Source of the DNA: a virus
Length of the DNA: 35,475 nucleotides
IMG/VR virus record: IMGVR_UViG_3300045738_000347
Span: 1-35,475 of that record
Direction: 5' to 3' (one strand)
The notes beneath the pieces are model-generated. The model was given only the letters and a program-made list of their open reading frames with translations, did no database searches and was not told where the DNA came from. This document shows positions 15,193 to 33,024 of this stretch, one piece after another. Position numbers and translations under genes: made by a program. Position 1 is the stretch's first letter. Each line of letters starts with the position of its first letter.

Positions 15193-18100
15193 ATGGCGGA
15201 GATAATAAACACTTTTCTAAAAGGTAAAATGAATAAGGATCTTGATGAGCGACTTATACCTAAAGGTGAATACCGCGAAGCACAAAATATTCTTATTGGA
15301 GATTCAGAGGATGCTGATGTTGGTGCAATTGAAAATATTTTAGGAAATAAATTAGCATACCAAAATGTGTTAGCTGTTAATGCAAATTCTAACGTAATAG
15401 GTCATTGTGTAGACATTAAAACCAAAAAAATCTTTTGGTTCATAACGGATTTTCTTGGAAATAGTAATAGTGTAAGAACTATGTCACGTGCGGATAATTC
15501 ACATAATTGTAAAATTATAATGCTTGACACATCAACTAGTAGTGCTGTACCTATAACGCTGGTAAGTGGTTATTTTTTGAATTTTAGTAAATCTCATTTA
15601 ATCACCGGTGTTAATATTATAGAAGATTTATTGTTTTGGACAGATGATTATAATCAACCAAGAAAAATAAATGTTACCACCGCACAAAATGATCCAACAT
15701 ATTACAATTGTGAAGAAAAAATATCTGTAGCAAAAGTACCACCATATACACCAGCTATTTTATTAGAGCAAATTTTACCAACAGCTGCTATGACATTAAC
15801 ACGGGTAACAGCAACAACGATAGCGGGTGGAAATCCAACTAATGGTGACTATGCAAATTTAGCCACAACAACAAGTGGTGATGGTACAGGTGCTATAGTT
15901 AGAATTGTGTTTACATCAACCCCAGCTATTGCGTCTATCACCGTAACAACATCTGGATCTGGTTATTTACCGGGTGATACTCTAATTACAGCAGCCTTTG
16001 ATACTGACAAGGTTGTAACAATAACACTTCAAGATAATGACTTTAGCCTTTTAGGTGATGGTACAACACTAACTAAAGATAATAATGTAAAATCAGAATA
16101 TTTAAAAGAACGTTTTGTGAGATTTTCTTATAGATATAGATATGATGATGGGGAATATACAACATTTGCACCTTTTACACAAATTATTTTTAAACCATTA
16201 AATAGTGGAAAAATATCAGATTTAGCTACAGGTTCAGGATATACATCTGGTTACAGTAAACACGATGTATACAAAAAAGGTATTGTAAAAATAATGGAGA
16301 ATGATTACAATAAAGTAGAAATAAGAATCCCATTACCATCTATTGATGAATTTAAAACAACTAAATCAACATGGGTTAATGATTTAAAATTAAGAAATGT
16401 TGAAATTTTAGCTAAAGAATCAGATGGAATATCAGTACAGGTAGTTTCTGATATTAAAGTAGATACAGCAAATACTTCGTTTACAGATAACGTAATACAA
16501 TATACAATAAAACCAAAAACAGCCGGTAATACTATATATTATAGACACGCTTATAAACACATTTATCGTTCTGAAAAACCATATAAAACATTACCTGAAG
16601 ATCAAACCGTTAGAGTGTTTGATAAAGTTCCAGTTAGAGCAAAAGCACAAGAAATTGCCGGTAATAGATTAATATATGGTAATTTTACAGAAAATTATGA
16701 TTTACCTAATGATGAACTTGGTAATCAAGGAATAAATTATTTAATAAATTCTAGTACCAAAGGATCAAGAGAACAAGGGGATACCAGCGGTTTTAGACAA
16801 TATTTACAAAAGGCGTACAAATACCATTCGCTAAAACAAAAAAGAACATATCAAGTTGGTGTTGTTTTAATTGATAGGTTTGGCAGGCAATCACCTGTTA
16901 TATTATCTTCAAATGCGGAGACAACTTTAACAAAAGCACCAGATACATACACAAATCCAGTAGAACAAGGTTCATTTGCTAATAATTATGGTAGTGCATA
17001 TAGTTGGAGTAATGCGGAATTAGCTATAGGTAAATCGTTAGATATAGAATTTAAAGATACAAGACTTGTTCCTTTTGCAAGTGCTTCTAACCAAAATAGA
17101 TCTAATGAGCTATTCAATGGTACTATTAATGATACATGTTTAGTTGATGGTAAATTATTAACAATACCAACTGTAACAGCTAGTAGTAATGGAACTACAG
17201 CAGCATTAGCAACTGTTACCGTAACGGGTAGTGGTAGTGGCGCAACATTAAAACTCATATCATCATCAGCTAATATTAATAGTGCAACAGTTGTAGCAGC
17301 TGGTTCTGGTTATGCTGTGGGAGATCAAATAAAAGTAACAGATACTGTTATGGAAAATGACACCAATATTGGAACAACAGGTGGTGATTTAGTGATTACA
17401 TTAACCTCGAGCGATATAAAGAATTTTTATAATCCACATGGTTGGTATGCATGGAAACTTGTTGTAAAACAAACAGAACAAGATTATTATAACGTGTATG
17501 CTCCACATCCTGGCGATAGTTGGAATAATACAGAACATTATTTTGATAATAGCATAGAGGGAAGGAGTTGGTTAACATTACATGGTGACAACATCAATAA
17601 AGTGCCGCGTGACGTTGAAGATGTAGACGTATCAAGAGAAGGTGTTTCTGGATCAAATGTAAAATTATATCCAAAAGTAGTGTCATTAGATGCAGATACT
17701 TCTGGTCCAGCAGATTTACCACTAGATCGTGCTAATTTAGCATATTCTATAAGAAATACAGACACGACTGATTATATTGATGTGATTAGTATTGGTACAG
17801 CTAAAGATCAAAACTTATTTAATTCTGCAGTGAAAACAGATGTTACCGGAGATGACGCTGGTATAACTGGATTTTCTGTATATTCATTTGTGCATGGACA
17901 TGATAGAAACCCTATTGTAGCAGAATTACCAAACTTAAAAACAAGTGGTAGTAACAATAATGCTGGTGTTAGAGGTACTGTTGCTGCCGCGACAACAAAT
18001 TCTACCACAGTAACGGTTAACCCAGAAAAAACAATAACTGTTGGGCCTAGTGGGAGTTCATATAATGTTGGTCCATTTAGTGGTGGGGAAAATAAAATTG

Positions 18101-19452
18101 AAATAGGTATGCGTGTAACAGGTCCAAGTATATCACCAGATAATATAAACGTACCAGTTCTTGTTTCTAACGTAACTGGTGGTAGTGGTGGGTCACCTTG
18201 GTCAATAACACTTTCTGAAGATCAATCCATTGCTGCTAAAGAGAATTTATTTTTCTCATTACATAAAACTGGTTTAACAGTTTTTGAAACAAAACCTATA
18301 GAATCAAAATTAGATATATTCTATGAAACAACAACATGTGGTTTATTAAAAGATATTAATGAACAAGTAAGTGAAGTGACAAACGCCCCAACAAATTTAC
18401 ATTTCAATTCAACTAACAATAAAACAGAAGATTTTGAAGAAAATAATGCCAGTGCAACAGTCATAGGGGGAGCGGTTAATACATTAGATTGTGACATAAC
18501 TCCAGGTTCTTCTAATACTGTTACATACTCACTAAATAGTGTAAGTAATGGGGCTGGGGAATCTAACCTGAATAGTAAATTTCAGGTATTATCTAATGGA
18601 AAAGTTAGAACGGCAGGAGATTTTGCTAGACGTAATTCAGTTGCTTTAGATAAATACAATTTAGAAATAAGATTTGATGAGAGTAATGCTGGTGTTGCAA
18701 CGGATACTGTTGTTATTGAAGTATTGAATTCAGATCCAACAATTACAGCCACAACACCACAAAGTGTTGTGATCAATGCTTTAACTGGAACCCCTGTTGT
18801 TGCGGGTACAGCAGAAAATGGAGCACAATTAAGTAGTTCTAATTTAGATGTTATTAATTTAACATATAGTTTTGTGATGGGTGATACTGATTTTAATACA
18901 TTTTTTGAAGAAGATACAAGCACAAGTGATGGTAATTGGGGTTTTAAAACAACAAGTAGTTTCAATGGCTCGGAGTTCTTAGGTGGGTCTCCTAGTGATA
19001 GACTAATGACAGTTACGGTAACAGACGCTGAGGGAGCAACCACTAGTGTCGCTGTTCGTATAGATGTTGTTGATACAAGAGTTTCAGGTCAGCATGCTAC
19101 ATTACCAAACGGTAGCAATGAGGGACCACCTAATGGCAGTAATTATAAGCTTTGTTTTTCTTATCAAAGTTCAAGTGTTTGTACGAGTTGTAATGAAATT
19201 AGTGATCTTTGGATACAAAAGGGTACTGACCCTAGTAATCCAAATAACCCAGCAGCTAGTTTAACACAACACGAATTGATCCCTGGAAATATAATATTTA
19301 CTAACGAAACTGGTAACACAAGAGCCGGTTTGGGTCATTATAAATTTTATAAAACACTTGATGGTAATTGGTATTACGGAACGGTTACCACGGGATCCGA
19401 TGATTATAATGCGGGTCAAAGATATGTTTCATCAGTAACACAATGTAGTTAA
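15193..19452 (+). CDS. Large tail protein (nozzle/tube-type) with repeated beta modules and a cadherin-like C-terminus
   Basis: 1419 residues. The N-terminal ~650 residues contain motifs I know from tail proteins of similar phages: MNKDLDERLIPKGEYREAQN, LLFWTDDYNQPRKINV, ERFVRFSYRYRYDDGEYTTF, and VFDKVPVRAKAQEIAGNRLI. Two copies of a Gly-rich module interrupt it: about 229-280 (GDGTGAIVRI, SGSGYLPGDTLI) and about 679-740 (GSGSGATLKL, AGSGYAVGDQIKV, DLVITLTSSDIKN). Residues ~1179-1300 resemble a cadherin- or Ig-like domain (NSDPTITATTPQSVVINALT, MTVTVTDAEGATTSVAVRID). The tail end is Cys-rich (LCFSYQSSSVCTSCNE). Position and N-terminal motifs suggest the short-tail nozzle (T7 gp12-like); surface domains may bind glycans. 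The role is inferred. Confidence 0.65.
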   Translation: MAEIINTFLKGKMNKDLDERLIPKGEYREAQNILIGDSEDADVGAIENILGNKLAYQNVLAVNANSNVIGHCVDIKTKKIFWFITDFLGNSNSVRTMSRADNSHNCKIIMLDTSTSSAVPITLVSGYFLNFSKSHLITGVNIIEDLLFWTDDYNQPRKINVTTAQNDPTYYNCEEKISVAKVPPYTPAILLEQILPTAAMTLTRVTATTIAGGNPTNGDYANLATTTSGDGTGAIVRIVFTSTPAIASITVTTSGSGYLPGDTLITAAFDTDKVVTITLQDNDFSLLGDGTTLTKDNNVKSEYLKERFVRFSYRYRYDDGEYTTFAPFTQIIFKPLNSGKISDLATGSGYTSGYSKHDVYKKGIVKIMENDYNKVEIRIPLPSIDEFKTTKSTWVNDLKLRNVEILAKESDGISVQVVSDIKVDTANTSFTDNVIQYTIKPKTAGNTIYYRHAYKHIYRSEKPYKTLPEDQTVRVFDKVPVRAKAQEIAGNRLIYGNFTENYDLPNDELGNQGINYLINSSTKGSREQGDTSGFRQYLQKAYKYHSLKQKRTYQVGVVLIDRFGRQSPVILSSNAETTLTKAPDTYTNPVEQGSFANNYGSAYSWSNAELAIGKSLDIEFKDTRLVPFASASNQNRSNELFNGTINDTCLVDGKLLTIPTVTASSNGTTAALATVTVTGSGSGATLKLISSSANINSATVVAAGSGYAVGDQIKVTDTVMENDTNIGTTGGDLVITLTSSDIKNFYNPHGWYAWKLVVKQTEQDYYNVYAPHPGDSWNNTEHYFDNSIEGRSWLTLHGDNINKVPRDVEDVDVSREGVSGSNVKLYPKVVSLDADTSGPADLPLDRANLAYSIRNTDTTDYIDVISIGTAKDQNLFNSAVKTDVTGDDAGITGFSVYSFVHGHDRNPIVAELPNLKTSGSNNNAGVRGTVAAATTNSTTVTVNPEKTITVGPSGSSYNVGPFSGGENKIEIGMRVTGPSISPDNINVPVLVSNVTGGSGGSPWSITLSEDQSIAAKENLFFSLHKTGLTVFETKPIESKLDIFYETTTCGLLKDINEQVSEVTNAPTNLHFNSTNNKTEDFEENNASATVIGGAVNTLDCDITPGSSNTVTYSLNSVSNGAGESNLNSKFQVLSNGKVRTAGDFARRNSVALDKYNLEIRFDESNAGVATDTVVIEVLNSDPTITATTPQSVVINALTGTPVVAGTAENGAQLSSSNLDVINLTYSFVMGDTDFNTFFEEDTSTSDGNWGFKTTSSFNGSEFLGGSPSDRLMTVTVTDAEGATTSVAVRIDVVDTRVSGQHATLPNGSNEGPPNGSNYKLCFSYQSSSVCTSCNEISDLWIQKGTDPSNPNNPAASLTQHELIPGNIIFTNETGNTRAGLGHYKFYKTLDGNWYYGTVTTGSDDYNAGQRYVSSVTQCS

Positions 19453-19454
19453 AA

Positions 19455-20867
19455 ATGGGAGCAACAATAGAAATAGCATATTACAACACATTTATCTTAG
19501 CAGGTGGCGGTACCGCTATAACAAATCAAGGAACACCCGTTGAAAAAGAAGGGGAGTATCACGTTGAAGAAGCGCGTATACACGGTGGGTATAATGAACC
19601 TGGTGTCGACTTTGGTGTTAGAGCACACATAACAAATGAAAAATACCAATCAAGGACAAGAGAAAATGCTTTAATTTATTCTGGTATATACAATTCAAGA
19701 ACAGACATAAATAAAACAAATGAATTTTCAGTTGGTGCTGATATTACAAAAGCTGTTGATATAGCAAATGGAAGTATTCAAAAATTATATGCTGAAGATA
19801 CTAATTTAAATATTTTTCAAGAAAATAAAGTAAGTAAAGCATTGATAGATAAAGATGCTATATATACTGCTGAGGGTACACCTATACAAGCATTATCCAA
19901 TGTTGTTATAGGAATAATTTCACCATACGTAGGTAAATATGGTATTAGTAAAAACCCAGAAAGTTTTGCGGTGTTTAGTAATAGAAAATATTTTGCAGAT
20001 AAAAGTAGGGGCGTTGTATTAAGATTATCTAGTGGAACTGATGGTGGAGATGGTATAACACCAATATCCATGTACGGTATGAAAGATTTTTTTAAAGATA
20101 AATTATCACTAAGTACATTAATATATGGTACATATGATGCACAAAAAGATCATTATGTTATTTCTTTACAAGGTGATTCAGTTAACCTGTCTGGAACAAA
20201 ACATTTTATTAATATTAAAAAAACAGGTGACAACCAAATAGAAGGTGATATAACGGATTATTTAACAGTAAGTTTTGGTGAAGAAGAAAAAGGTTGGGTT
20301 TCTTTTTATACATATAAACCAAATTTTGGATTTAGTTTAGAAAATAATTTTTATACTTTTTATGGAAAAGATTTATACAAACATTATAACACCTCTGTTG
20401 GTAGAAATAATTTCTATAATGCTGTATACAATGATTCATCTTATGTGGATTGTATATTTAATGATGAAGTATCTATTGTAAAGAGTTTTTTAACAATAAA
20501 TTACGATGGAAGTACGGGTTGGGAAGCAGATGTTTCTTCTAGTGGTTATAAAAATATAAAAAGTGATGGTAGTTATTATACTTCAATAGCAGAAGAAGGA
20601 TATAAAATTCCTAAAGAAGGTGTAATGATACCTAATGTACACCCTGCACAACCAGCGGGTTTTGTTAGGAAAGAAGGAAAATATTTTGGGTTTATTAAGA
20701 ATAAAGGTAATGATAAATTTAATGATAACTCACAATTCACAACAACTGGATTACATGGTAATTATTTAAACACAACGTTACGATATTGGAATCCAAATGA
20801 AAGTTCCACTGTTAATAAGGCTGAATTATTTTCCGTGTCTAGTGAAGCAAAATTTTCATCAAAATAA
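19455..20867 (+). CDS. Tail structural protein
   Basis: 470 residues, starting 2 bp after the 1419-residue tail gene. It is beta-rich with few helices, and has a segment I associate with phage tail proteins: IQKLYAEDTNLNIFQENKVS followed by KALIDKDAIYTAEGTP (about 114-150). Strands with Gly/Tyr turns then recur (LSLSTLIYGTYDAQKDHYVI, GWVSFYTYKPNFGFSLENNF), which would suit a beta-propeller or beta-solenoid tail component. In some relatives these motifs may sit in the same polypeptide as those of the upstream protein, so the pair may form one complex. No signal peptide, no enzyme motif. Confidence 0.6.
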   Translation: MGATIEIAYYNTFILAGGGTAITNQGTPVEKEGEYHVEEARIHGGYNEPGVDFGVRAHITNEKYQSRTRENALIYSGIYNSRTDINKTNEFSVGADITKAVDIANGSIQKLYAEDTNLNIFQENKVSKALIDKDAIYTAEGTPIQALSNVVIGIISPYVGKYGISKNPESFAVFSNRKYFADKSRGVVLRLSSGTDGGDGITPISMYGMKDFFKDKLSLSTLIYGTYDAQKDHYVISLQGDSVNLSGTKHFINIKKTGDNQIEGDITDYLTVSFGEEEKGWVSFYTYKPNFGFSLENNFYTFYGKDLYKHYNTSVGRNNFYNAVYNDSSYVDCIFNDEVSIVKSFLTINYDGSTGWEADVSSSGYKNIKSDGSYYTSIAEEGYKIPKEGVMIPNVHPAQPAGFVRKEGKYFGFIKNKGNDKFNDNSQFTTTGLHGNYLNTTLRYWNPNESSTVNKAELFSVSSEAKFSSK

Positions 20868-20872
20868 AAAAT

Positions 20873-21331
20873 ATGGATTTAACTAAAATAAAATCTATCG
20901 ATACTTTACAACGGTTTATAATAGATAATAATGATAAAGAGGGTTTTTATGGTGATGGGAAAAATATACCAACTATAGATGAAATACCAATAACACATAA
21001 ATTTGCAGATCAAATATACATTAGACAAATGGATATGAAAAAAGATCAAGTTGTTGTTGGTTGTATGCATAATCATTTACATGCTTGGTTTTTAATGACT
21101 GGTAGTGTAACAATTAATGATAATGGTAAAATTATTGAATATGTGGCACCTTATTATACAATTTCAAAACCTGGTGCAAGAAGAATTATTCGTGCTATTG
21201 AGGATTCTATATTTATAAGTATACATAAAAATCCATCTAACACAAAAAATAAAAAAAAATTAGAAAAAGAAATAGTTTCTATAACTAAGAAAAAATTTAT
21301 GAAATACAAACAACTAAATAAAAAATTATGA
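20873..21331 (+). CDS. Phage cupin-fold protein
   Basis: 152 residues. Cupin motif 1 is seen in VVVGCMHNHLHAWFLMTGSV with candidate metal ligands His66, His68 and His70. The second half, APYYTISKPGARRIIRAIED followed by SIFISIHKNP, matches the pattern 'PPGTRR..yalEDt....HpT' that I know from small cupins encoded near tail and virion genes. Motif 2 lacks the usual His. The C-terminal ~40 residues are Lys-rich (KKKLEKEIVSITKKKFMKYK). The stop overlaps the ATG of the next gene (ATGA). The function of these phage cupins is not settled; a virion or assembly role is inferred from the neighbours. Confidence 0.72.
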   Translation: MDLTKIKSIDTLQRFIIDNNDKEGFYGDGKNIPTIDEIPITHKFADQIYIRQMDMKKDQVVVGCMHNHLHAWFLMTGSVTINDNGKIIEYVAPYYTISKPGARRIIRAIEDSIFISIHKNPSNTKNKKKLEKEIVSITKKKFMKYKQLNKKL

Positions 21332-22476
21332 CATGGGTAATGTTAGCAATAGGAACAGCAACGGCGATTGCTGGTGCAGTAGCAAAAAATAAATCAGCTA
21401 AAGATGCAGAAGAAAAAGCCAAGTCGGCAAAGCAGGAATATGGGGCTCAGTTAAAAGCAGCTGAAGCTCGTAGACAAGACATTACTGATCCTTTTAAAGA
21501 CATTAAGGATTTAAGTGGTATGATTAGAAATCCATACGCTGGTTTACAGGTTGCAACTCAAGCCGCGGAATTCCAAGCAGAGGAAGCTGATTTATCTTTA
21601 GCATCATCCCTTGACACATTGAGAGCAACTGGTGCAAGCGCTGGTGGAGCCACCGCTTTGGCACAGGCAGCATTGAGGAGTAAAAAAGGTATTTCAGCTA
21701 ATATAGAACAACAAGAGGCACAAAATACAAGACTCAGAGCACAAGGAGAAACTCAAATGCAAGGTATGTTAATGCAAGAAAAAGCTAGAGTACAAGGAGC
21801 TAGAGCACAAGGGGAACAGTTTATGTTTGGTGCTAGGGAACAACGAGAGGGTATTGAACTAGATCGTTTAGCAGGTTTAATGGGTAATCAACAACAACAG
21901 GAAAATGCATATAGTATGGCGCGTATGAATGTGTGGGGTTCTGCATTAGGACAAATAGGAGGTGCAGCAATGGCCGCTGGGGGTCAAAATCTCGCAGCAG
22001 GTAAAACGACATTTGGTAGCAATACACCTGGAGGTAATCCATTTTCCACCGGTACAAATACATTAAATTGGGGTCAGTACCAGAACCTGCCAACTCAAAT
22101 AAAAATTCCTATGTCCAGTTGTTTTACAAAAGGATCATTAATTAAAATGTTTGATGGTACTTTAAAAGCAATAGAAAACATTAAAATTGGAGAGTGGGTT
22201 AGAACTGGTGCGAATAAAAAAGGTGTTGTTAAACAAACGCTAATACACGCTATTAATAACAAAATAAATATATACAGACACAATGAAACGGGTGTCACGG
22301 GTAGTCACTGGGTATTCTTAGCCGGTGAGTGGATGCCTGCGAGAAGATTACGTTGGATATTTAATTGGGATAAAAAACAAGAATTAGTTGACAACGTATA
22401 TAACTTAGAAATAAAAGGAGATAACGAGACTTACATAACAAACAATATTATAGTTTCAGGAAAACTTTACAAATAA
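21328..22476 (+). CDS. Internal virion protein with C-terminal Hint (intein-like) domain
   Basis: 382 residues in three parts. Residues 1-25 are a hydrophobic Gly/Ala segment (WVMLAIGTATAIAGAVA). Residues ~26-190 form a long Ala/Gln/Glu helical region (SAGGATALAQAALRSKKGIS, NTRLRAQGETQMQGMLMQEK) like T7 gp14-type ejection proteins. After a Gly/Asn linker, residues 265-382 are a Hint domain: block A CFTKGSLIKMFDGTLKAIEN with IKIGEWV (Cys265), block B TGSH (Thr324, His327), block F VYNLEIKGDNETYITNNIIV. It ends NIIVSGKLYK: the His-Asn pair needed for C-terminal splicing is replaced by Ser377-Gly378 and no real C-extein follows. N-terminal thioester cleavage would therefore be possible, splicing not. 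Hint assignment is strong; activity is inferred. Confidence 0.82.
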   Translation: MTWVMLAIGTATAIAGAVAKNKSAKDAEEKAKSAKQEYGAQLKAAEARRQDITDPFKDIKDLSGMIRNPYAGLQVATQAAEFQAEEADLSLASSLDTLRATGASAGGATALAQAALRSKKGISANIEQQEAQNTRLRAQGETQMQGMLMQEKARVQGARAQGEQFMFGAREQREGIELDRLAGLMGNQQQQENAYSMARMNVWGSALGQIGGAAMAAGGQNLAAGKTTFGSNTPGGNPFSTGTNTLNWGQYQNLPTQIKIPMSSCFTKGSLIKMFDGTLKAIENIKIGEWVRTGANKKGVVKQTLIHAINNKINIYRHNETGVTGSHWVFLAGEWMPARRLRWIFNWDKKQELVDNVYNLEIKGDNETYITNNIIVSGKLYK

Positions 22477-22488
22477 AATAATAAAATA

Positions 22489-24210
22489 ATGGGAGAATAT
22501 CAAAATCCAACATATCGAGGTATAAAAGATCCAAGCGCATTTACTAATGCTTTTAATCAAAGTTTTAGTTTATGGTTTGATAAAGTAACTGCAATATTAA
22601 TAAATAAGAAAAATCAAAAGACAAAACAAGCAATAGCATACCAACAATCTAAAGATGATTATGCTAAAAAAGTTCATGGATTCTACACTGATAATAAAAA
22701 AGAAATTGATAGTGCAAACTCAGCCCACTTGGGTGTAGTTAAAAGTATTAATTTTTTAAACGAGCAATATACGAGGTATGCAAGCAATAATCAATTAACC
22801 GATGGAGATTTTAGAAGATCAGGTGATGAGTTCAAAATGGCTATTACACCAATAAATCTTATGAGTGGGACTTTTTGGGGGGACAATTCTGTTAATTTAA
22901 CGAATCTTAATATGGGTCATGGTAATGATTTCCAACTCCTAAAACAACTCAAAATAGATGTAGAGGGTTCAACTGATGAACAAATACAAGGAATGTTTGG
23001 TTTGAATCTACTCATGCCAGGTCAACCCGTGCCTGAGGGTTATAGAGTAGGGCAGATATATGGTAAAGATATAGTATTATCCACTGGTGAAAAAATAACG
23101 CCAAGTGAATTAACAAGGATGTTAATACAAGCTAGACACCCAGGTAATAAGCTTCATGGAGAAAATACCTCTATGTCTGCTATAAACACGGGTATGGATG
23201 TGTTGGTTGATAATGCAAACAGTAATACTAAAAAAAATATAGATGTTCAATATAGGGGTGATGTAGGTGGGAATTACGATGATTATGAGAAACAAAGGGA
23301 TGATGATTTTACAACTCACGTGAAAAATGAAGTGGATGATTGGAGTGGAAAGAATAATTTTTCCCCCACTTTATGGCATAATAAAATGAACGTGAGAGAT
23401 AAATTATTCAGTGAGGGAGATATAGATCCTAATGGTAACGCGATGAGTGCTGAAGTGGCTGAAAGATTAAATCGTTTGGAATTTGGTGATATTCAAAAAA
23501 TGTTAAACAATATGGAAAGTGAAGGAAATACTGGTGTAGATAGCACGTGGCCAGGTGATGACACACCGGGGTTAGGTATACCTGAAGAGGGTGCTGAATT
23601 ACCAACACAGATAGATTATGATTTAGCTAGTTATATTATTGATGCACAAAATGGAAAAATAGTAGATTATTTAGTTAAAGAAAACATAGATAAGTTAGAT
23701 GCGGTTACTCGTCCTAAACCTTTAACTATAAAAGAAAGTAAAAAACCTTTCTACGAAATTAAAACAGAAAATCAAGGAATATTGTATGATAATTACGAAT
23801 CTGATTTTAGTGAATTAATGAGTGTGTACACAGATCCTGAGCGTTACACGGTTGATAATGTTACTGTTAGTGGAAAAAGTTTACAAGATTTTCTAATGCA
23901 TAAAGCTATTAAAGTTGGAGATAATAATACTACCATAATGGCAGTTAAATTAGGTGAAAATAAAGAGAAAGCATTTAATGAGGATGGATCACCTAATAAA
24001 GCTTATAAATCTGGTGGTGTATTGACGCTGAGCGTTGAATGGGCTAAAAAAAGTGGAGGTGTAGTAACACTTGATAAAGAATATGATTTAACACTTATGA
24101 ATCATAATGATTTCTATGAATTAATAGGTGGACTTACAGGAACTCTTAAACCCGAAGAAGTTATAAATGAAAATAAACGATACGGTAGAATCAATCAAAA
24201 TCCATATTAA
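22489..24210 (+). CDS. Hypothetical internal virion-type protein
   Basis: 573 residues between the Hint-domain protein and the giant protein, with 12- and 18-bp gaps, so one operon. It is hydrophilic, Asn/Asp/Lys-rich and mostly helical at the N-terminus (FNQSFSLWFDKVTAILINKK, KQAIAYQQSKDDYAKKVHGF). An acidic, Gly/Pro-rich stretch lies near 355-375 (STWPGDDTPGLGIPEEGAEL) and a beta-rich region towards the end. No membrane segment or catalytic motif is visible. By position it corresponds to a T7 gp15-like ejection protein, but I see no sequence support for that beyond order and size. Confidence 0.6.
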   Translation: MGEYQNPTYRGIKDPSAFTNAFNQSFSLWFDKVTAILINKKNQKTKQAIAYQQSKDDYAKKVHGFYTDNKKEIDSANSAHLGVVKSINFLNEQYTRYASNNQLTDGDFRRSGDEFKMAITPINLMSGTFWGDNSVNLTNLNMGHGNDFQLLKQLKIDVEGSTDEQIQGMFGLNLLMPGQPVPEGYRVGQIYGKDIVLSTGEKITPSELTRMLIQARHPGNKLHGENTSMSAINTGMDVLVDNANSNTKKNIDVQYRGDVGGNYDDYEKQRDDDFTTHVKNEVDDWSGKNNFSPTLWHNKMNVRDKLFSEGDIDPNGNAMSAEVAERLNRLEFGDIQKMLNNMESEGNTGVDSTWPGDDTPGLGIPEEGAELPTQIDYDLASYIIDAQNGKIVDYLVKENIDKLDAVTRPKPLTIKESKKPFYEIKTENQGILYDNYESDFSELMSVYTDPERYTVDNVTVSGKSLQDFLMHKAIKVGDNNTTIMAVKLGENKEKAFNEDGSPNKAYKSGGVLTLSVEWAKKSGGVVTLDKEYDLTLMNHNDFYELIGGLTGTLKPEEVINENKRYGRINQNPY

Positions 24211-24228: not shown

Positions 24229-27200
24229 ATGGCAATAGATATTAGCAATGATAGAAAAAAGTTTATACAAGAACTATACGCACAATATAATTTATCGGAT
24301 GAGCTTACTGATCAAAAGCTAAAAGATATATTAGATTGGGAGGCTAATCTTGAAATGCAAAATCCAAAATTATATGATTTTAAAACTTCGGTTAATGAAA
24401 ATTTTAAAACAAAAATTGCCCACAAAGGTATAAAACCAATAAGCGCGGTAACTACAGAAAAAACACCAATAAGTGATGATAAAACATACCAAGCCCCAAC
24501 TTTAAAAGATATTGAAGGAAATGTTTATTCTGCTGTAGCTGAACAATTTTTAGATGAGAAAGACATAGACAAGGGAGCTCCAGAGCAATTGACAGAAAAG
24601 GATTTTAAATTAAATGAAGATGATTTTTTACAAAAAGCAAAAAGGGTTTATCCCGACAAATTTGAATTCAAAACAGCACAATGGGGTAAAGACGCTATTA
24701 AAATAACAAACAAAGAAGGTAAATCTAAAGTTATACAACTAAACACACCAATACTCTCTTCAACGGGAAGAAAAGGAAACGAACTCGCGTTCCAACAATT
24801 CACAGATTTTATAGATGCAAGTATAAAAGGCATTTCACCAAAATCAAAAACAGCAAAAATATATAGTAAAACAAAATTAAAAAAAGACGAATATTACCGT
24901 TTAGAGGTTAAGGGCTCGGGAAGTGTAAAACCAAATATAGATGACAAAGAGTATACTAAAAAAATGGAAAGATTGGTGAATAAGGTTGAAGAGCTTACGG
25001 CTGGTATTATTACAAACCCAGGTGCATATATAGATGAGTTACCGGCAGACATGAACATGTTTGATACAGAGTGGCTTGACAGTGGTAACAATCAAGAGCG
25101 TATAAAAGATGTTATATATGAAAGTGTAGTTAGGAAATCAAAAAATTATTTAGGTGGCAGGTTAGATAGAGATTCTTTTGATGCGATTATTGGTGCGGGA
25201 GGTGCTGGTTTATATAAGAACATAATGGAAATTCAAAAAAAGAAAGAAAGTAGAAAGAGAACAATAGAGGTATTAAAAAACAATCCTGTGGATACAGATA
25301 GAGTCGCGTGGGAAGATATTGAGCAGTATAAAAAACGTGATTCAAAACAAAAAATTAAAATTCAATTAGTTAAAGAAATAAGAGAATTAAATAAACAATT
25401 AAAAAACGCTACAACTACAGCAGACAAAAACAGCATACTGCTACAAATTAAAGAAAAAGAAAAACAAATAAAAAGAAACGCAACATCTAAAGATATTAAC
25501 TTCCAGCTTTTACCTGGTCAAAAACCAACAACAATAAATAAAGATTTAGCATCAATATTTTATGACATGTATGAGGTGGATACCGCAGAAAATATGATTC
25601 ATTGGGCTGAGTCACTTTTAAATAATATGGATGAAAAATTACTTAGCATAGATAAAAATATAAATATAGGTAAGATTTCTATATATGACGCGTTTACAAT
25701 GTTAAGAAAAGATAAAATAAGTGAATTTGATTATCTTGTTAATATGGGTGAAGAAAAGAAAATAAAAATTGATCTATCGGGGTTTAAAAAAATCTCATTT
25801 ACAAGAAGTAGGGTAGTAGGCGCATTAAATAGACACCTTGATGATAAAACTAGAAAATCAATAAAAAATAATATACTATCAATATCCTATGATGATATAG
25901 ACTTAATGAAGGAAGATATGGATTTTACAGACCTTAAGGGAGCTGTCAGTGAAGAAGATTTTAACTGGATGAAGATACACAAATCTGCTATAGAAAAAAA
26001 CACATCTGAGAGACACGTATTATATGATTTAACAGAAATGAATCGAGATCCTGGGTATGTAGATAAACCTGGTTTTGTTGTAAATATGTTACAATCAGCA
26101 GTATCATCTACGCTACAAGATATTTTTGGGTATTCAAAATATGAAGCTAATAAAGTCGCCACTCTCAGTGAACAAGGTAGGGCTGATGTTTGGTTGAGTG
26201 AATTTCAAGATTTAGTAACAGAATACAATGAGACATATGGAGAAGATAATCCTATTCAGTTAACTAAACAACAAATAAAGAATTTAGAGAAATCATTGAG
26301 TGCGACCATAGCAGAAGGAGCCGGTCATTTTCTTCCCATAATAGTAAAATTAGGTATTATTGGGCGCGTTGTCAATCCTTTATTATCAATAACGGGTGTT
26401 GCTAACAAGCTAATGAAAATGACACAAAGTAAGAATCTATACACACGTTTAGAGGGTCATTTTCTAAATAGTATGATTGAAGAAGCTAAAGGTCAACCTG
26501 CTGGGTTTGGTGTAGGAACTATGTCAGTATTTTATGGCGCTAATGTTGCGCTCCGTGGAATAAAATTCCATCCAATGTGGAATCCTGTAATGCAAAAAAT
26601 TGTTAAACAAGGTTTTACTGGTTTGGGAGCTTCTGAAGTGTCTCTATTGTTAGATGAAGGTTTGTTAAAAAATAATGATTTTAAAGCTGTTTGGAATGAA
26701 TTATATGGTGAATACAGTGATTTTGAGAAAAGAATGTTAGTAACTTTGATTAATTTTAAAATGCTTGGTGCTACACATATAAAACCATCAGATCTTCCAT
26801 GGAAAAGAACAATTGATGGATTAAAAAATTTGGAATTAAGAGCGCAAAAAGATAAACTTGATGTTATATTAAAATATGAACAAGATTTAAAAGAAGGAAA
26901 AGTTAAATATGATGATAAAATATTAGGTACAGAGGATTTATCACCTATAGAGTTGTTTGCAAGGGGAAAAGCACAAGAGAAATATCAAAGTAAATATGAT
27001 GCATATAACGCTACAGAAGCAGACGCCGCAATGGCTTTTGATGTTTCAACTAAAGCATATGAAATAAACCCGGAACATCCAAATTTTGAAAAAAATGTAA
27101 AAGAAAGGTTACTTGATCCATATAATAACGCATTACGTGAAGTTATTGGTGAAAATTTTGAAAATATAGAACTCAAATGGGTTGAAACCTTAGGTGAAGG

Positions 27201-30200
27201 CATTCCCGCTGAATACAATCCTAAAACAAATGTTATAAGCGCTGTAAAAGGCAAATTTAATATTGAGTTATTTAACCATGAAATAAGCCATGCCACAACA
27301 CGTAATTATTTTAAAGCAAATCCCACCATTCAAATGAGTTTTGCTAAATCATTTGCACGGAAATTTAGGAAATTTAATTTTGAAATAACAGATCCATTTG
27401 ATGGAAAACGAAAAAATATAAAACAGTTCATCAAAGAAAATTATGGGAAAAATGGTAAAGTATTAGACTTAAGAAGCGAAGAAGCTAGAGTCAATTTTAA
27501 TAATGAATTTATAAGTTACGCAATGCAGTTATTAACAAGACCAGAGGTTAATAGAAGTATGAATGCTGTAAATGTGTTTCAAGAAATGGGGGATGTGGTA
27601 AAATCTCATTTTGAAGGACTTGGTATGAAAAATAATATCACCACAATGGAGGGGTTGATAAATGGTATGGCTAGATTAGGTAGAACTAATTTGTTCGGTA
27701 CAACATCACCAAATCAAATACAAAATTTAATGGAAGGTTTTAAAAATCTTGGTATTTTCATGACCGACAAAAGTATTAGTAAGCGAGATTTTTCTCAAGA
27801 AAGGTTTGAGGCAAAAGATATATCGGAGGCTGCTAGGGAACTAAACAACTTTGTTGAATCTAGTTTTAGGTTATTAGACTGGAAGAATTTGAGTGAAAGT
27901 AAAAAGAAAGATTTCGGTGAAAAAATGGGGATACATTATGAAGGGCGTATAAGGGGTATTTTAAAAAATAGATACCCAGATTTAACACAAGAACAAATTG
28001 AAAATATTTCCACGCTTTTTGTCGATAGGAATGCTAAAGATGGTTTTACAGGTTTAGTTACATTATTTGATCCTGCTAAAAATGATAGCATAACTGGTTA
28101 TCTTTATAATGCAACAGGAGGTATTGAAGTGAGATTAAGAAAATTTGTTGCAGCAGAAAAAACCGGTCATACTAGACTTGAGGATCCTGCTTATATGGGT
28201 GGTGAAACATCTACTACATTAGGGGAAACAATACCTGATCCTTCTACTCTAAAAGGTCCAAAGATAGAATTAGGTAAAAAACAAAATGAAGTAGATCCTA
28301 CAACGGATTTAACTCCAATACAATTAACAAAAGCTAGAGATGGAATAAATACTTTACATGATCAAAACATATTAATATTTGATTATAAAACACAATCGTT
28401 AGACCCTAAAAGTTTAGCCAAATTAACAAACAAAATAATAGACCCAATTACTAGAGAGAGACTTGGAATTGAATCGAAACCTGGTAATGCTTATACTGAA
28501 GGAGATGTTAAAAAAGTTATCAAGTGGCTCAAAAAAACAACAACACATAATGGTAAAAAAATAACAATTGGTGAATTAATATTTAATGGAATGCCTATAA
28601 GTAATGTAAACCCAAATACAGGTAAAGAAATGGGTATACGAACCGTTATGAAACAACTCCTATATGACTACAAAACGGATAGAGCAAAAATTACCAAAGT
28701 TGGACAAGGTACTGGTATAAAAATAAAGAAAAATTGGTTAGAAATAGGTGGTATAGAAGGAATAGAAAAAATATTTGAACAACTAAAAAAAGAAGGTAAG
28801 AGGGGTCATCTAAATCTCGCTGAGGCTTGGGTGGATCAGTACAATAAATTACTTGGCAATACTTTAGCTAGAGAAAAAGCTAAAACAGAAAACGCAAAAG
28901 CAGAAGTTTTAGAAGAAATGACTGGTGGTTATATTGACTTAAAGGCCGTGGAGATAAAAAACGAATGGAACAGGGTTCCAGGAATGACTGAGAATATGGT
29001 TCAATATTATATAGGTGAATACGCTAAAGATCCAGATAAATTTAAAAGTAAATATTCACAAGAGACCATAGATATGGTTGAAAATATTATAAAAGTAGAA
29101 GCTTACAATAGATTTATAGAAGGAAAAGCAAGTGCTGCACATTATGACTTAAATACAATTAAACTTAAAGATATAACATTAAGCAATGGAGATAAAATAA
29201 CGAAAAAAGAACAACAAGACATATCCAACGATATTACATACCTAACAAAAGACCCAACGGGTAAAAAATATTTACTTGAAAAATATGGGGGAGAAAAAGA
29301 CATAAGAGAAGTTGATGTTAAGCGCACGGAGGAATTTGTAAAAATGGCTCAAGAATTTTCTGAATATTTGCCAAAAGGAATGGGGGGTGGATTAAAAGGT
29401 TTTGCTAAATTTTTATCAGGCATACAAAGTAGATCAACTGCTCAAATTGGTAGTAAAGACACAAAGGGTTTTAGAAAACTTAGAAATAAAGATGGTGAAA
29501 AGTTTGATGCTCTAGAATGGTGGATGAATCCTCCATTCAAAAATATCGGTAAAAACAAAAAAGCACAAGAACTATATAAAAACTTAACATTCAAAGATTT
29601 CAAGCAATTAACAACGTTAAGAAAAGCTTATGAAAAAGCGCTTAAATTAAGAGAAGAAGGTAAAATAGAAGAAGCAGATAAAGTTCTGGAAAAAACATTT
29701 TCTCTAGAAAACGAAAACGTTAAAAGGAAATTATACTATCAATTTAACTCAGCAAAACAACTTTGGTTAGAAGATGCACCTAATAAAAAAGAATATTTAA
29801 GAAGATATAGATACATATTAACACTGGGTAAACTGCAAGATAACATTGTTGGTGGTGAAAGAGCTTTGGTTCCAATACATGCTGTGTATTTACCCGGTGG
29901 ACAAGTAAAGGGAATTAAATTAGAACATATACAATCTATGGTAGAACGATCTCTTGAAACAGCTAGAGCCATTGTTGAAGGTAGGTGGATAAGCGAAGGT
30001 AAAAAATTAACAAAAAGTTATAAAGGTGTTTTGGGAGAAAAAGAATCATTTGATGTAATTGATTTTGTTGGTGGTAAAACCAATACAAGTGGAATAGCTA
30101 AACTTGTCGTTGACATGGAAAAATTAAAATATTATCGTATAGTTGGAGACAAGGGTATTACAAACGTGACATTATATGATCAACTTATGCATACAACTGC

Positions 30201-33024
30201 ACAAAGTTTAGGTAGAATGGGTAGAGAATTAACACAACCGTATATTAAAGATATGTTTTATAAGTATGTGGCTTCAAAAGCAGAATCAGATAGAATTACA
30301 TTAGAAAAAGCTATCAAAGATCCTAAGTGGGCAAAAATACACGCGCGTCATGTTCAAGCAGTTATTAAATCAGGATTACATGCTGATAAAAATATGAGTA
30401 CGTCTCAACTCGCTGAACTTTTAAATCTTAAAACAAAAGCAGCGCGGATATATTTAGATCCTAATGCTAAAAAGAAAGGTGGTAGTGTTTATGATTTAGA
30501 TAGAACATTGTATGAGGGTATAGAAAAAGTTACGGTTACAATGCCAAGTGGTAAGAAATTAAGATTAAATTCTGAAGAGTTTGCACGTGAGTATGATAAA
30601 CTACAAAAAGAAGGTGGGGAATTTGATTATTTACAATTTGACAAGATGTTTGGTAATAAAAAAGGTCCTTTATTTAAACATTTACTTGAACAGCAAGAAC
30701 AACACGGTAGTGAACACTTGTATATTTTAACAGCAAGGTCACCAGGTGCAACAAAAGCAATTCACGAGTGGTTGAAAAGAAATGGTGTAGATATGCCAAT
30801 AGATAATATTGTTACACTACAAGATGGTAGGCCAGAAGCAAAAGCAAATTGGTTTATTGGTAAGATAGTTGAGAAAAACTATAATGATTTATTTTTTACT
30901 GATGATATGAAAGCTAACGTAAATGCTGTAAGTAAAGTATTAGATAAATTAGGTATTAATTCAAAAATTAGAGAAGTTAATGCACAAGCCGCTAAAGATT
31001 TGAGTTCAGATTGGAACAGGATGATTGAAGAAACCACGGGTGTGGAAGCGTTTAAAGTAATTTCACAAGCAACGGCAAGAAAATCAGGTAGAGATATAGA
31101 TAAATGGAGATGGTGGTTACCCTCAAGTGCACAACACTTTTTAACATTAAATTATAAGTTTTTTGGAAAAGGAAAACAAGGTGACAAACATAGGGAATGG
31201 TTTGATAAAGTATTAGCTGAACCGTATGCTAAAGGAAACTATCAACTAAATATAGAAAGAGCAAGACTTAGGGATGATTATAAAGCCCTATTAAAGGACA
31301 ATAAAAATGTTAAAAAAATTCTAAAAAAAGATACTGGTTATCGTGGTTATACGTTTGAACATGCGGCTAGAGTATACTTATGGGATTCATTTGGTATTAA
31401 TATGGAAAAGCATGGGTTAACTAAAACCGACACAAAGAAGTTGATACAAATAGTAAAATCAAACCCAGAACTTCAAGCGTTTGCAGATCAACTCCCTGGA
31501 ATTGCTAATATTAAAGAAGGTTACATTGCACCTAATAAATATTGGGTGGATGAAGGTATAGCACATGATATAAGAAATATTGGTGGAAAAGTATATAGAA
31601 AAGAGTTATTAAAAACATGGGTGGATAATAAAAATAAAATATACACACCAGATAACTTAAATAAAATAGAGAAAATATACGGGACTAGATATAGGGAGGC
31701 TTTAGAAGATATATTATATAGAATGGAATACGATACAAGTAAATCTTTTGGTAAAGATAGAAAAACTAATTCTTTATCTAAATATATTTCAAATGCCACA
31801 GCAACGGTTATGTTTTTAAATAGAAGATCCGCATTAACGCAAACTATATCATCATTGAATTTCATTGAAGCAACTGGACCTAATAATATTTGGGCAGCAG
31901 CTAAAGCATTTGCTGGAAATCCAAAACAATATTGGAAAGATTTTGTTATGATATTTAATTCACCAATGTTAAAACAAAGAAGATTAGGTAATAAATTAGA
32001 TGTTAATTATGCGGAATTAGTTAATACCATGAGAGATAAAAAAGATCCAATTACAGCGGTTTCAGCATGGATGTTAGAAAAAGGATTTATTTTTACTAAA
32101 GGTGCTGATAGTTTTGCTATTGCGTTTGGTGGTGCTGGGTACTATAGGAATTATATAAACCATTATTTGAAAAAAGGTATGTCAAAAGTGGAAGCAATAA
32201 AAACAGCATTTTTGAAATTCCAAGAAGCATCAGAACCTACACAACAATCAACAAGAGCTGACCTTATATCCCAAGAGCAAGCAAGTCCCGTTGGAAGATT
32301 CGTACATAATTTTCAAAATGTATCTCTACAAAATAACAACAATATGTATAGGGGTATTTTAGATGTTATTAATGGTAGGGGTGATATGAAAACAAACATA
32401 TCAAAAATAATATACTACGGCGCTGTACAAAATATTATGTTCTTAAGTTTACAACAAGCATTATTTTCAGCATACTTTGATCCAGAAGATACAGAAGAAC
32501 TACAACAAGCAAAAGTTAACGACAAAATGGTAGGTATTGGTAATGGTATGTTGGATATATTATTAAGAGGTAGTGGTATTAGTGGTGCAGTTGTATCAAC
32601 ATTAAAAAATGTTTTAATGCAATATGTTAAAGAAACTCAAAAGGGTTATAAAGGAGATCAAGCTAAAGTGTTAATTCAAGCATTAAACTTTTCCCCTTCA
32701 TTGGGATCAAAAGCAAGAAAATTCTATAGTGCTCTACAAGATGATAAATTTAGTAAAGAAACCACCATTCAACCAACACTACTTGCGGCTGAAGCTATAA
32801 CGAATATACCATTTAATGAATTCTACGAAATGGTGGGAGATGGGGTATTATTAAGTAATCAAGAATTAGAAAATTGGCAAAGATTGTCTATAATATTAGG
32901 TTATAGACCTTGGCACGTTGGTATTGATGTCAACGAGGGAGATGAGGAAGAGACGGGTGGTGATCTAAAAATCTCAGATCTTGAACTTATTGATCTAGAA
33001 ACTTCAGATTTAAAGATAAATTAA
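24229..33024 (+). CDS. Giant polyvalent internal virion protein with zincin and HAD-phosphatase motifs
   Basis: 2931 residues, one uninterrupted frame. Seen in order: helical, charged N-terminus with a coiled coil near 380-425; hydrophobic, possibly membrane-active stretches at ~695-735 (HFLPIIVKLGIIGRVVNPLL) and ~755-780; metallopeptidase motif HEISH at 1017-1021, with EFISYA (Glu1093) as likely third zinc ligand; a Lys-rich middle; a HAD-type set with DLDRT (Asp2089, Asp2091), LYILTAR (Thr2168), Lys2205 and TDD (Asp2225-Asp2226); and a C-terminal block with ADSFAIAFGGAGYYRN (~2626-2641), which I associate with large polyvalent phage proteins. No lysozyme or transglycosylase motif is apparent. 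The position matches T7 gp16, ejected with the DNA; enzyme domains could act in the host. Targets are unknown. Confidence 0.7.
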   Translation: MAIDISNDRKKFIQELYAQYNLSDELTDQKLKDILDWEANLEMQNPKLYDFKTSVNENFKTKIAHKGIKPISAVTTEKTPISDDKTYQAPTLKDIEGNVYSAVAEQFLDEKDIDKGAPEQLTEKDFKLNEDDFLQKAKRVYPDKFEFKTAQWGKDAIKITNKEGKSKVIQLNTPILSSTGRKGNELAFQQFTDFIDASIKGISPKSKTAKIYSKTKLKKDEYYRLEVKGSGSVKPNIDDKEYTKKMERLVNKVEELTAGIITNPGAYIDELPADMNMFDTEWLDSGNNQERIKDVIYESVVRKSKNYLGGRLDRDSFDAIIGAGGAGLYKNIMEIQKKKESRKRTIEVLKNNPVDTDRVAWEDIEQYKKRDSKQKIKIQLVKEIRELNKQLKNATTTADKNSILLQIKEKEKQIKRNATSKDINFQLLPGQKPTTINKDLASIFYDMYEVDTAENMIHWAESLLNNMDEKLLSIDKNINIGKISIYDAFTMLRKDKISEFDYLVNMGEEKKIKIDLSGFKKISFTRSRVVGALNRHLDDKTRKSIKNNILSISYDDIDLMKEDMDFTDLKGAVSEEDFNWMKIHKSAIEKNTSERHVLYDLTEMNRDPGYVDKPGFVVNMLQSAVSSTLQDIFGYSKYEANKVATLSEQGRADVWLSEFQDLVTEYNETYGEDNPIQLTKQQIKNLEKSLSATIAEGAGHFLPIIVKLGIIGRVVNPLLSITGVANKLMKMTQSKNLYTRLEGHFLNSMIEEAKGQPAGFGVGTMSVFYGANVALRGIKFHPMWNPVMQKIVKQGFTGLGASEVSLLLDEGLLKNNDFKAVWNELYGEYSDFEKRMLVTLINFKMLGATHIKPSDLPWKRTIDGLKNLELRAQKDKLDVILKYEQDLKEGKVKYDDKILGTEDLSPIELFARGKAQEKYQSKYDAYNATEADAAMAFDVSTKAYEINPEHPNFEKNVKERLLDPYNNALREVIGENFENIELKWVETLGEGIPAEYNPKTNVISAVKGKFNIELFNHEISHATTRNYFKANPTIQMSFAKSFARKFRKFNFEITDPFDGKRKNIKQFIKENYGKNGKVLDLRSEEARVNFNNEFISYAMQLLTRPEVNRSMNAVNVFQEMGDVVKSHFEGLGMKNNITTMEGLINGMARLGRTNLFGTTSPNQIQNLMEGFKNLGIFMTDKSISKRDFSQERFEAKDISEAARELNNFVESSFRLLDWKNLSESKKKDFGEKMGIHYEGRIRGILKNRYPDLTQEQIENISTLFVDRNAKDGFTGLVTLFDPAKNDSITGYLYNATGGIEVRLRKFVAAEKTGHTRLEDPAYMGGETSTTLGETIPDPSTLKGPKIELGKKQNEVDPTTDLTPIQLTKARDGINTLHDQNILIFDYKTQSLDPKSLAKLTNKIIDPITRERLGIESKPGNAYTEGDVKKVIKWLKKTTTHNGKKITIGELIFNGMPISNVNPNTGKEMGIRTVMKQLLYDYKTDRAKITKVGQGTGIKIKKNWLEIGGIEGIEKIFEQLKKEGKRGHLNLAEAWVDQYNKLLGNTLAREKAKTENAKAEVLEEMTGGYIDLKAVEIKNEWNRVPGMTENMVQYYIGEYAKDPDKFKSKYSQETIDMVENIIKVEAYNRFIEGKASAAHYDLNTIKLKDITLSNGDKITKKEQQDISNDITYLTKDPTGKKYLLEKYGGEKDIREVDVKRTEEFVKMAQEFSEYLPKGMGGGLKGFAKFLSGIQSRSTAQIGSKDTKGFRKLRNKDGEKFDALEWWMNPPFKNIGKNKKAQELYKNLTFKDFKQLTTLRKAYEKALKLREEGKIEEADKVLEKTFSLENENVKRKLYYQFNSAKQLWLEDAPNKKEYLRRYRYILTLGKLQDNIVGGERALVPIHAVYLPGGQVKGIKLEHIQSMVERSLETARAIVEGRWISEGKKLTKSYKGVLGEKESFDVIDFVGGKTNTSGIAKLVVDMEKLKYYRIVGDKGITNVTLYDQLMHTTAQSLGRMGRELTQPYIKDMFYKYVASKAESDRITLEKAIKDPKWAKIHARHVQAVIKSGLHADKNMSTSQLAELLNLKTKAARIYLDPNAKKKGGSVYDLDRTLYEGIEKVTVTMPSGKKLRLNSEEFAREYDKLQKEGGEFDYLQFDKMFGNKKGPLFKHLLEQQEQHGSEHLYILTARSPGATKAIHEWLKRNGVDMPIDNIVTLQDGRPEAKANWFIGKIVEKNYNDLFFTDDMKANVNAVSKVLDKLGINSKIREVNAQAAKDLSSDWNRMIEETTGVEAFKVISQATARKSGRDIDKWRWWLPSSAQHFLTLNYKFFGKGKQGDKHREWFDKVLAEPYAKGNYQLNIERARLRDDYKALLKDNKNVKKILKKDTGYRGYTFEHAARVYLWDSFGINMEKHGLTKTDTKKLIQIVKSNPELQAFADQLPGIANIKEGYIAPNKYWVDEGIAHDIRNIGGKVYRKELLKTWVDNKNKIYTPDNLNKIEKIYGTRYREALEDILYRMEYDTSKSFGKDRKTNSLSKYISNATATVMFLNRRSALTQTISSLNFIEATGPNNIWAAAKAFAGNPKQYWKDFVMIFNSPMLKQRRLGNKLDVNYAELVNTMRDKKDPITAVSAWMLEKGFIFTKGADSFAIAFGGAGYYRNYINHYLKKGMSKVEAIKTAFLKFQEASEPTQQSTRADLISQEQASPVGRFVHNFQNVSLQNNNNMYRGILDVINGRGDMKTNISKIIYYGAVQNIMFLSLQQALFSAYFDPEDTEELQQAKVNDKMVGIGNGMLDILLRGSGISGAVVSTLKNVLMQYVKETQKGYKGDQAKVLIQALNFSPSLGSKARKFYSALQDDKFSKETTIQPTLLAAEAITNIPFNEFYEMVGDGVLLSNQELENWQRLSIILGYRPWHVGIDVNEGDEEETGGDLKISDLELIDLETSDLKIN

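Follow-up and report, generated by a model that had tools for sequence, protein, structure and literature searches.

Organisation of the locus

The sequence analysed here, hereafter denoted the window, is a viral contig of 35,475 nucleotides (IMG/VR record IMGVR_UViG_3300045738_000347). An open reading frame of 382 residues on its plus strand (21328–22476; stop codon at 22474–22476) encodes a protein with two parts. Residues 1–264 (21328–22119, plus strand), the predicted mature product, constitute a gp14-like part which is mostly helical and carries a glycine/threonine/asparagine-rich linker at residues about 219–262. Residues 265–382 (22120–22473, plus strand) are assigned to a Hint domain, a domain best known as inteins or within Hedgehog proteins. 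The codons of Ser264 and Cys265 (22117–22122, plus strand) mark the predicted cleavage junction, which is placed by residue numbering and by the first cysteine (Cys1) of related domains; the codon of Cys265 occupies 22120–22122, where an earlier, sequence-only reading of this DNA had correctly put it.

The landmarks of the Hint domain are block A, starting at residue 265; VTGSH at 323–327, which contains Thr324 and His327; block F, beginning with VYNLE at 357; and VSGKLYK at 376–382, after which the protein stops. The C-terminal His-Asn, the following Cys/Ser/Thr and the C-extein of class 1 inteins are all absent. The next gene begins 13 bases past the stop codon, at 22489, and no continuation of the Hint domain was found in another frame, both other frames across the end being full of stops; the short end is thus not an obvious frameshift. 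In composition, examined as a check for recent transfer, the Hint-coding part has the same total GC as the contig (0.316), with GC3 at the 94th percentile of stretches of equal length.

The gene at 22489–24210 (plus strand) is a separate open reading frame of 573 residues, not a C-extein, and is followed by one of 2931 residues (24229–33024, plus strand). By position the two correspond to T7 genes 15 and 16, the latter encoding the large ejection protein. The 2931-residue product matches no Pfam family; its residues 2160–2234 show weak similarity to a polynucleotide-kinase PHROG (E=2e-4). The gp14-like gene is immediately preceded by one for a 152-residue protein (20873–21331) related to short tail fibre and adhesin PHROGs (E=4e-19). 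Further upstream, two consecutive open reading frames (15193–19452 and 19455–20867) resemble the muzzle protein of crAss-like phages, the Pfam families being PF25731 for its N-terminal part and PF25729 for its C-terminal domain; the muzzle looks as though it had been divided between two genes.

Identification of the Hint domain

The Pfam family Vint (PF14623) matches residues 264–367 with E=5e-6 and 26.8 bits, and scores 28.4 bits in a six-frame search (cut-off 27 in both cases). Weaker matches within the last 118 residues are to the Pfam families Hint (E=0.003) and Hom_end_hint (E=0.016) and, among PDB sequences, to PI-SceI (E=0.0067); NCBIfam gave no match. Against profiles of three groups of phage Hint domains (A, B and C, described below) the window scores 55, 54 and 68 bits, respectively, while the best of 2,000 shuffles reached 16, 11.5 and 10 bits, which places the Hint assignment well beyond chance.

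An AlphaFold model, for which aligned phage Hint domains served as input, has a pLDDT of 87.8 and a pTM of 0.79, and retrieved 22 PDB entries with Foldseek at E<=0.001. Among solved structures it comes closest to 8r2c, a Vint domain of Tetrahymena (Foldseek E=1.7e-6; VIA Z 15.0 over 115 residues at 2.0 Å); the BIL2 domain, a BIL from Clostridium, several inteins and Hedgehog 1at0 (Z 12.9) are also among the best matches, and VIA Z scores overall are 15.0–11. The N-terminal nucleophile and the block-B Thr-x-x-His are present as Cys265, Thr324 and His327; at F:4, the Asp of block F seems to be replaced by Asn (VYN), a residue found there in many phage Hint domains. The sequence-only reading had proposed a C-terminal Hint domain from blocks A, B and F, together with a structural comparison as a check. 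Pfam Vint, the profiles, and the match of the predicted model to Hint folds with Z up to 15.0 bear the proposal out, and these sequence- and model-based comparisons confirm that the open reading frame at 21328–22476 ends in a real member of the Hint superfamily.

Close relatives of this copy were not found. A search of viral contigs with the window Hint alone gave no relative, and tblastn of the full 382-residue protein against the phage collection gave no match; with the Hint alone, tblastn gave hits in 29 records, the best at E=6e-3, and most of these fell within genes for helicases, terminases or DNA repair. A Vint scan covering the window itself, two phage genomes and 45 related records from IMG/VR, 48 in all, found the domain in the window only.

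Vint domains (PF14623; 8r2c) resemble that of the window in being C-terminal, in their conserved blocks A and B and in lacking an intein end; the window differs in having no VWA or Vwaint domain upstream and in coming from a phage, not a eukaryote. Vint is defined by a VWA–Vwaint–Vint architecture (PMC2362128); VWA was absent from the Pfam scan of the window protein, which does not have this architecture.

Relationship to other phage Hint domains

Phage Hint domains were gathered by a block-A pattern and by alignment, and fall into three groups. Class A domains are C-terminal and end in FxDYxE (for example L070, L089 and L125); group B domains are intein/BIL-like, end in VHN and are often tandem or internal; class C domains are C-terminal and end in HN[FY]xxxxFVVSGLGDN (for example L266, L268 and L352). 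With the end removed from both profiles and query, the window remains nearest to class C, at 64 bits compared with 57 (A) and 50 (B). The class C set was itself picked by its VSG end; the best tblastn hits retrieved by block A only (L266, L267 and L268) are nevertheless class C. Judged from these comparisons, the VSGKLYK of the window is an ordinary class C end, shortened to KLYK after VSG. The sequence-only reading had described a lost splicing end, which holds in so far as there is no His-Asn, although the Ser-Gly end is a feature of the class and not a unique loss. Its further claim that canonical splicing should be impossible is supported by the absent His-Asn.

Class A and class C domains share with the window the C-terminal position, Cys1, the block-B His and the lack of a His-Asn end. 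They differ in being carried by other, mostly unannotated phage proteins, while the window Hint lies on a gp14-like protein and, unlike class C, stops right after VSG-KLYK. Some phage proteins (L342, L343, L172 and L357) carry Hint domains in tandem, those ending in HN being followed by a final class C domain (VSGLGDN); in another (L162), two HN-ending domains are directly followed by an S74-like stretch (SDARLKRNIELID...).

For the Cys1 count, domains of classes A and C were gathered using nothing but their distal ends. All 91 distinct class A domains keep Cys1, as do all 17 class C loci extending far enough to show it; the block-B His is kept in 90 of the 91 class A domains, and the class A Hint is the last domain of its protein in 113/114. 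The intein His-Asn occurs in neither set. With an invariant Cys1 and no His-Asn, formation of an N-terminal thioester, followed by cleavage or transfer and not by splicing, would be expected, and the pattern is consistent with selection for the N-terminal step only. Many phage proteins end in such a Hint, with a Cys1 that is invariant in these sets and without a splicing end, which points to a widespread self-processing step.

This agrees with what is described for characterised relatives. Thr B:7, His B:10 and residue F:4 function in the N-terminal splicing step, and type B BILs, which are without block G, cleave but do not splice (PMC4031507). The window, having no HN, likewise appears to lack block G and would thus be expected to cleave but not to splice; it differs from type B BILs in having nothing sizeable after the Hint. 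The Hedgehog Hog domain, which shares the Hint fold, needs the first acyl shift alone (PMC7664689), although there a sterol-recognition region follows the fold, with which the window protein ends. By analogy with these relatives, we infer that the window Hint may perform the N-terminal chemistry. The sequence-only reading had considered cleavage at Ser264-Cys265 possible, and the intact Cys265, Thr324 and His327 favour this. The survey of homologues that it suggested gave a divided answer: Cys1 is conserved in related phage Hint domains, but no other gp14-like family member bears one. Only one of 149 members carries a Hint, and no close sequences were found for this copy; the signs of selection come from its relatives.

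The gp14-like family

An initial search of IMG/VR found 61 relatives of the gp14-like part; a wider search with residues 1–264 found at least 546 among at least 599 matched stretches. The family alignment (A3) has 32 invariant columns. Metagenome-assembled genomes with gp14-like relatives are mostly from Flavobacteriaceae, Saprospiraceae and other Bacteroidetes, and the terminase of the window is nearest to that of MW202828 (63%), then to those of Elemovirus phages of Flavobacterium (45%). The host is described as marine bacteria of Bacteroidetes type.

The order of the gp14-like, 573-residue and 2931-residue genes parallels T7 gp14-15-16 and Elemovirus gp20-19-18. Elemovirus gp20, annotated as a virion structural protein, is a relative of the gp14-like part (hhalign E=5.8e-7) and weakly matches T7_gp14 (PF24072; E=0.0043); the window matches PF24072 below the cut-off (E=0.031; 14.6 bits, cut-off 27). 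A direct hhalign comparison with T7 gp14 was not significant (E=0.24), so the protein is 'gp14-like' by position and not a proven member. Its model is helical and of low confidence (pLDDT 66), with no significant PDB match. The sequence-only reading had seen a T7 gp14-type internal virion protein in the N-terminal part. Family and gene order make an internal virion (ejection) protein probable, although sequence homology to T7 gp14 itself is only marginal; virion-proteomics literature on its relatives was not found.

The C-terminus varies within the family. Among 149 distinct complete members, 136 have plain ends (median 240 residues; IQR 223–259), 12 have a putative Peptidase_S74 C-terminal domain (junction at 192–283), and one, the window, has a Hint (junction at 264). 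Cleavage between Ser264 and Cys265 would leave 264 residues, close to the usual family length. The S74-like ends bear the signature SDRRLKK...GVMSDE...VDYS and, where scanned, match phrog_6121, annotated as virion structural protein, with E values as low as 1e-14, while their best match to PF13884 is below the cut-off (18.2 bits, E=0.003; cut-off 22). In characterised examples, Peptidase_S74 is a self-cleaving C-terminal chaperone domain. It is unrelated to Hint in fold and chemistry, but takes an equal position on the gp14-like family in these 12 relatives.

Proposed role of the Hint domain

We lean, without great confidence, towards an internal-virion (ejection-type) protein with a non-splicing C-terminal Hint that would cut itself off by thioester chemistry. 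After folding of the Hint, Cys265 would attack the carbonyl of Ser264 in an N–S acyl shift, aided by Thr324 and His327, and the thioester would be resolved by water or a small thiol, which would release the Hint as a fragment of 118 residues and leave a protein of 264 residues, a normal length for the family. Cleavage, presumably hydrolytic, would rid the protein of a domain needed only transiently for assembly or folding, either ahead of virion assembly or in its course; the removable domain may help folding, serve as a tether or work as a timer. The observations behind this proposal are the predicted fold, the catalytic residues, the missing His-Asn, Cys1 conservation in relatives, the length match and the S74 slot in 12 relatives. 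Counted against it are the Asn at F:4, the presence of a Hint in 1/149 members and the sub-threshold Pfam scores of the S74 matches.

The same Asn, the tail truncated after SG and the dispensability of the domain in other gp14-like relatives would also suit a passive structural or binding module, in which the fold is kept and cleavage is absent or negligibly slow. We judge this unlikely, if by no means negligible: Cys265, Thr324 and His327 are all retained, and a passive module would not need the Cys1 that is invariant in related C-terminal phage Hints. Use of the Cys265 thioester for ligation, by which an amine, lipid or virion protein would be joined to the gp14-like part, as cholesterol is to Hedgehog, is improbable. 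The conserved N-terminal chemistry implies a thioester intermediate and the Hedgehog Hint fold is matched with Z 12.9, but the domain ends four residues past VSG, too soon to accommodate a region recognising a sterol or adduct, and no partner gene was identified; with nothing after the fold, the Hedgehog-like lipid coupling raised by the sequence-only reading is not upheld. Least plausible is a decayed intein on its way out, having lost its C-extein and splicing end, since, for all that the Hint fold is common to inteins and the last strand YITNNIIVSG resembles YIADNYVVHN of the HN-ending class, the end is typical of class C, the nearest class even without ends and one recovered without VSG selection, and no C-extein equivalent lies downstream.

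Returning to the self-removing domain, the gp14-like C-terminus might be a slot for removable self-cleaving domains, S74 or Hint, and phages might widely use C-terminal non-splicing Hints as one-shot virion-maturation proteases; this generalisation we offer tentatively, as possible though rather doubtful. A literature search of open papers found no studies of Hint domains on phage virion proteins. Family members with a Hint, without one and with S74 instead provide a ready control for its role.

The window phage has both S74 and Hint, as a clear Peptidase_S74 domain (residues 520–573; Pfam E=1.9e-17) is found in the product of 3–1853, an open reading frame cut by the contig start which probably encodes a tail fibre or spike.
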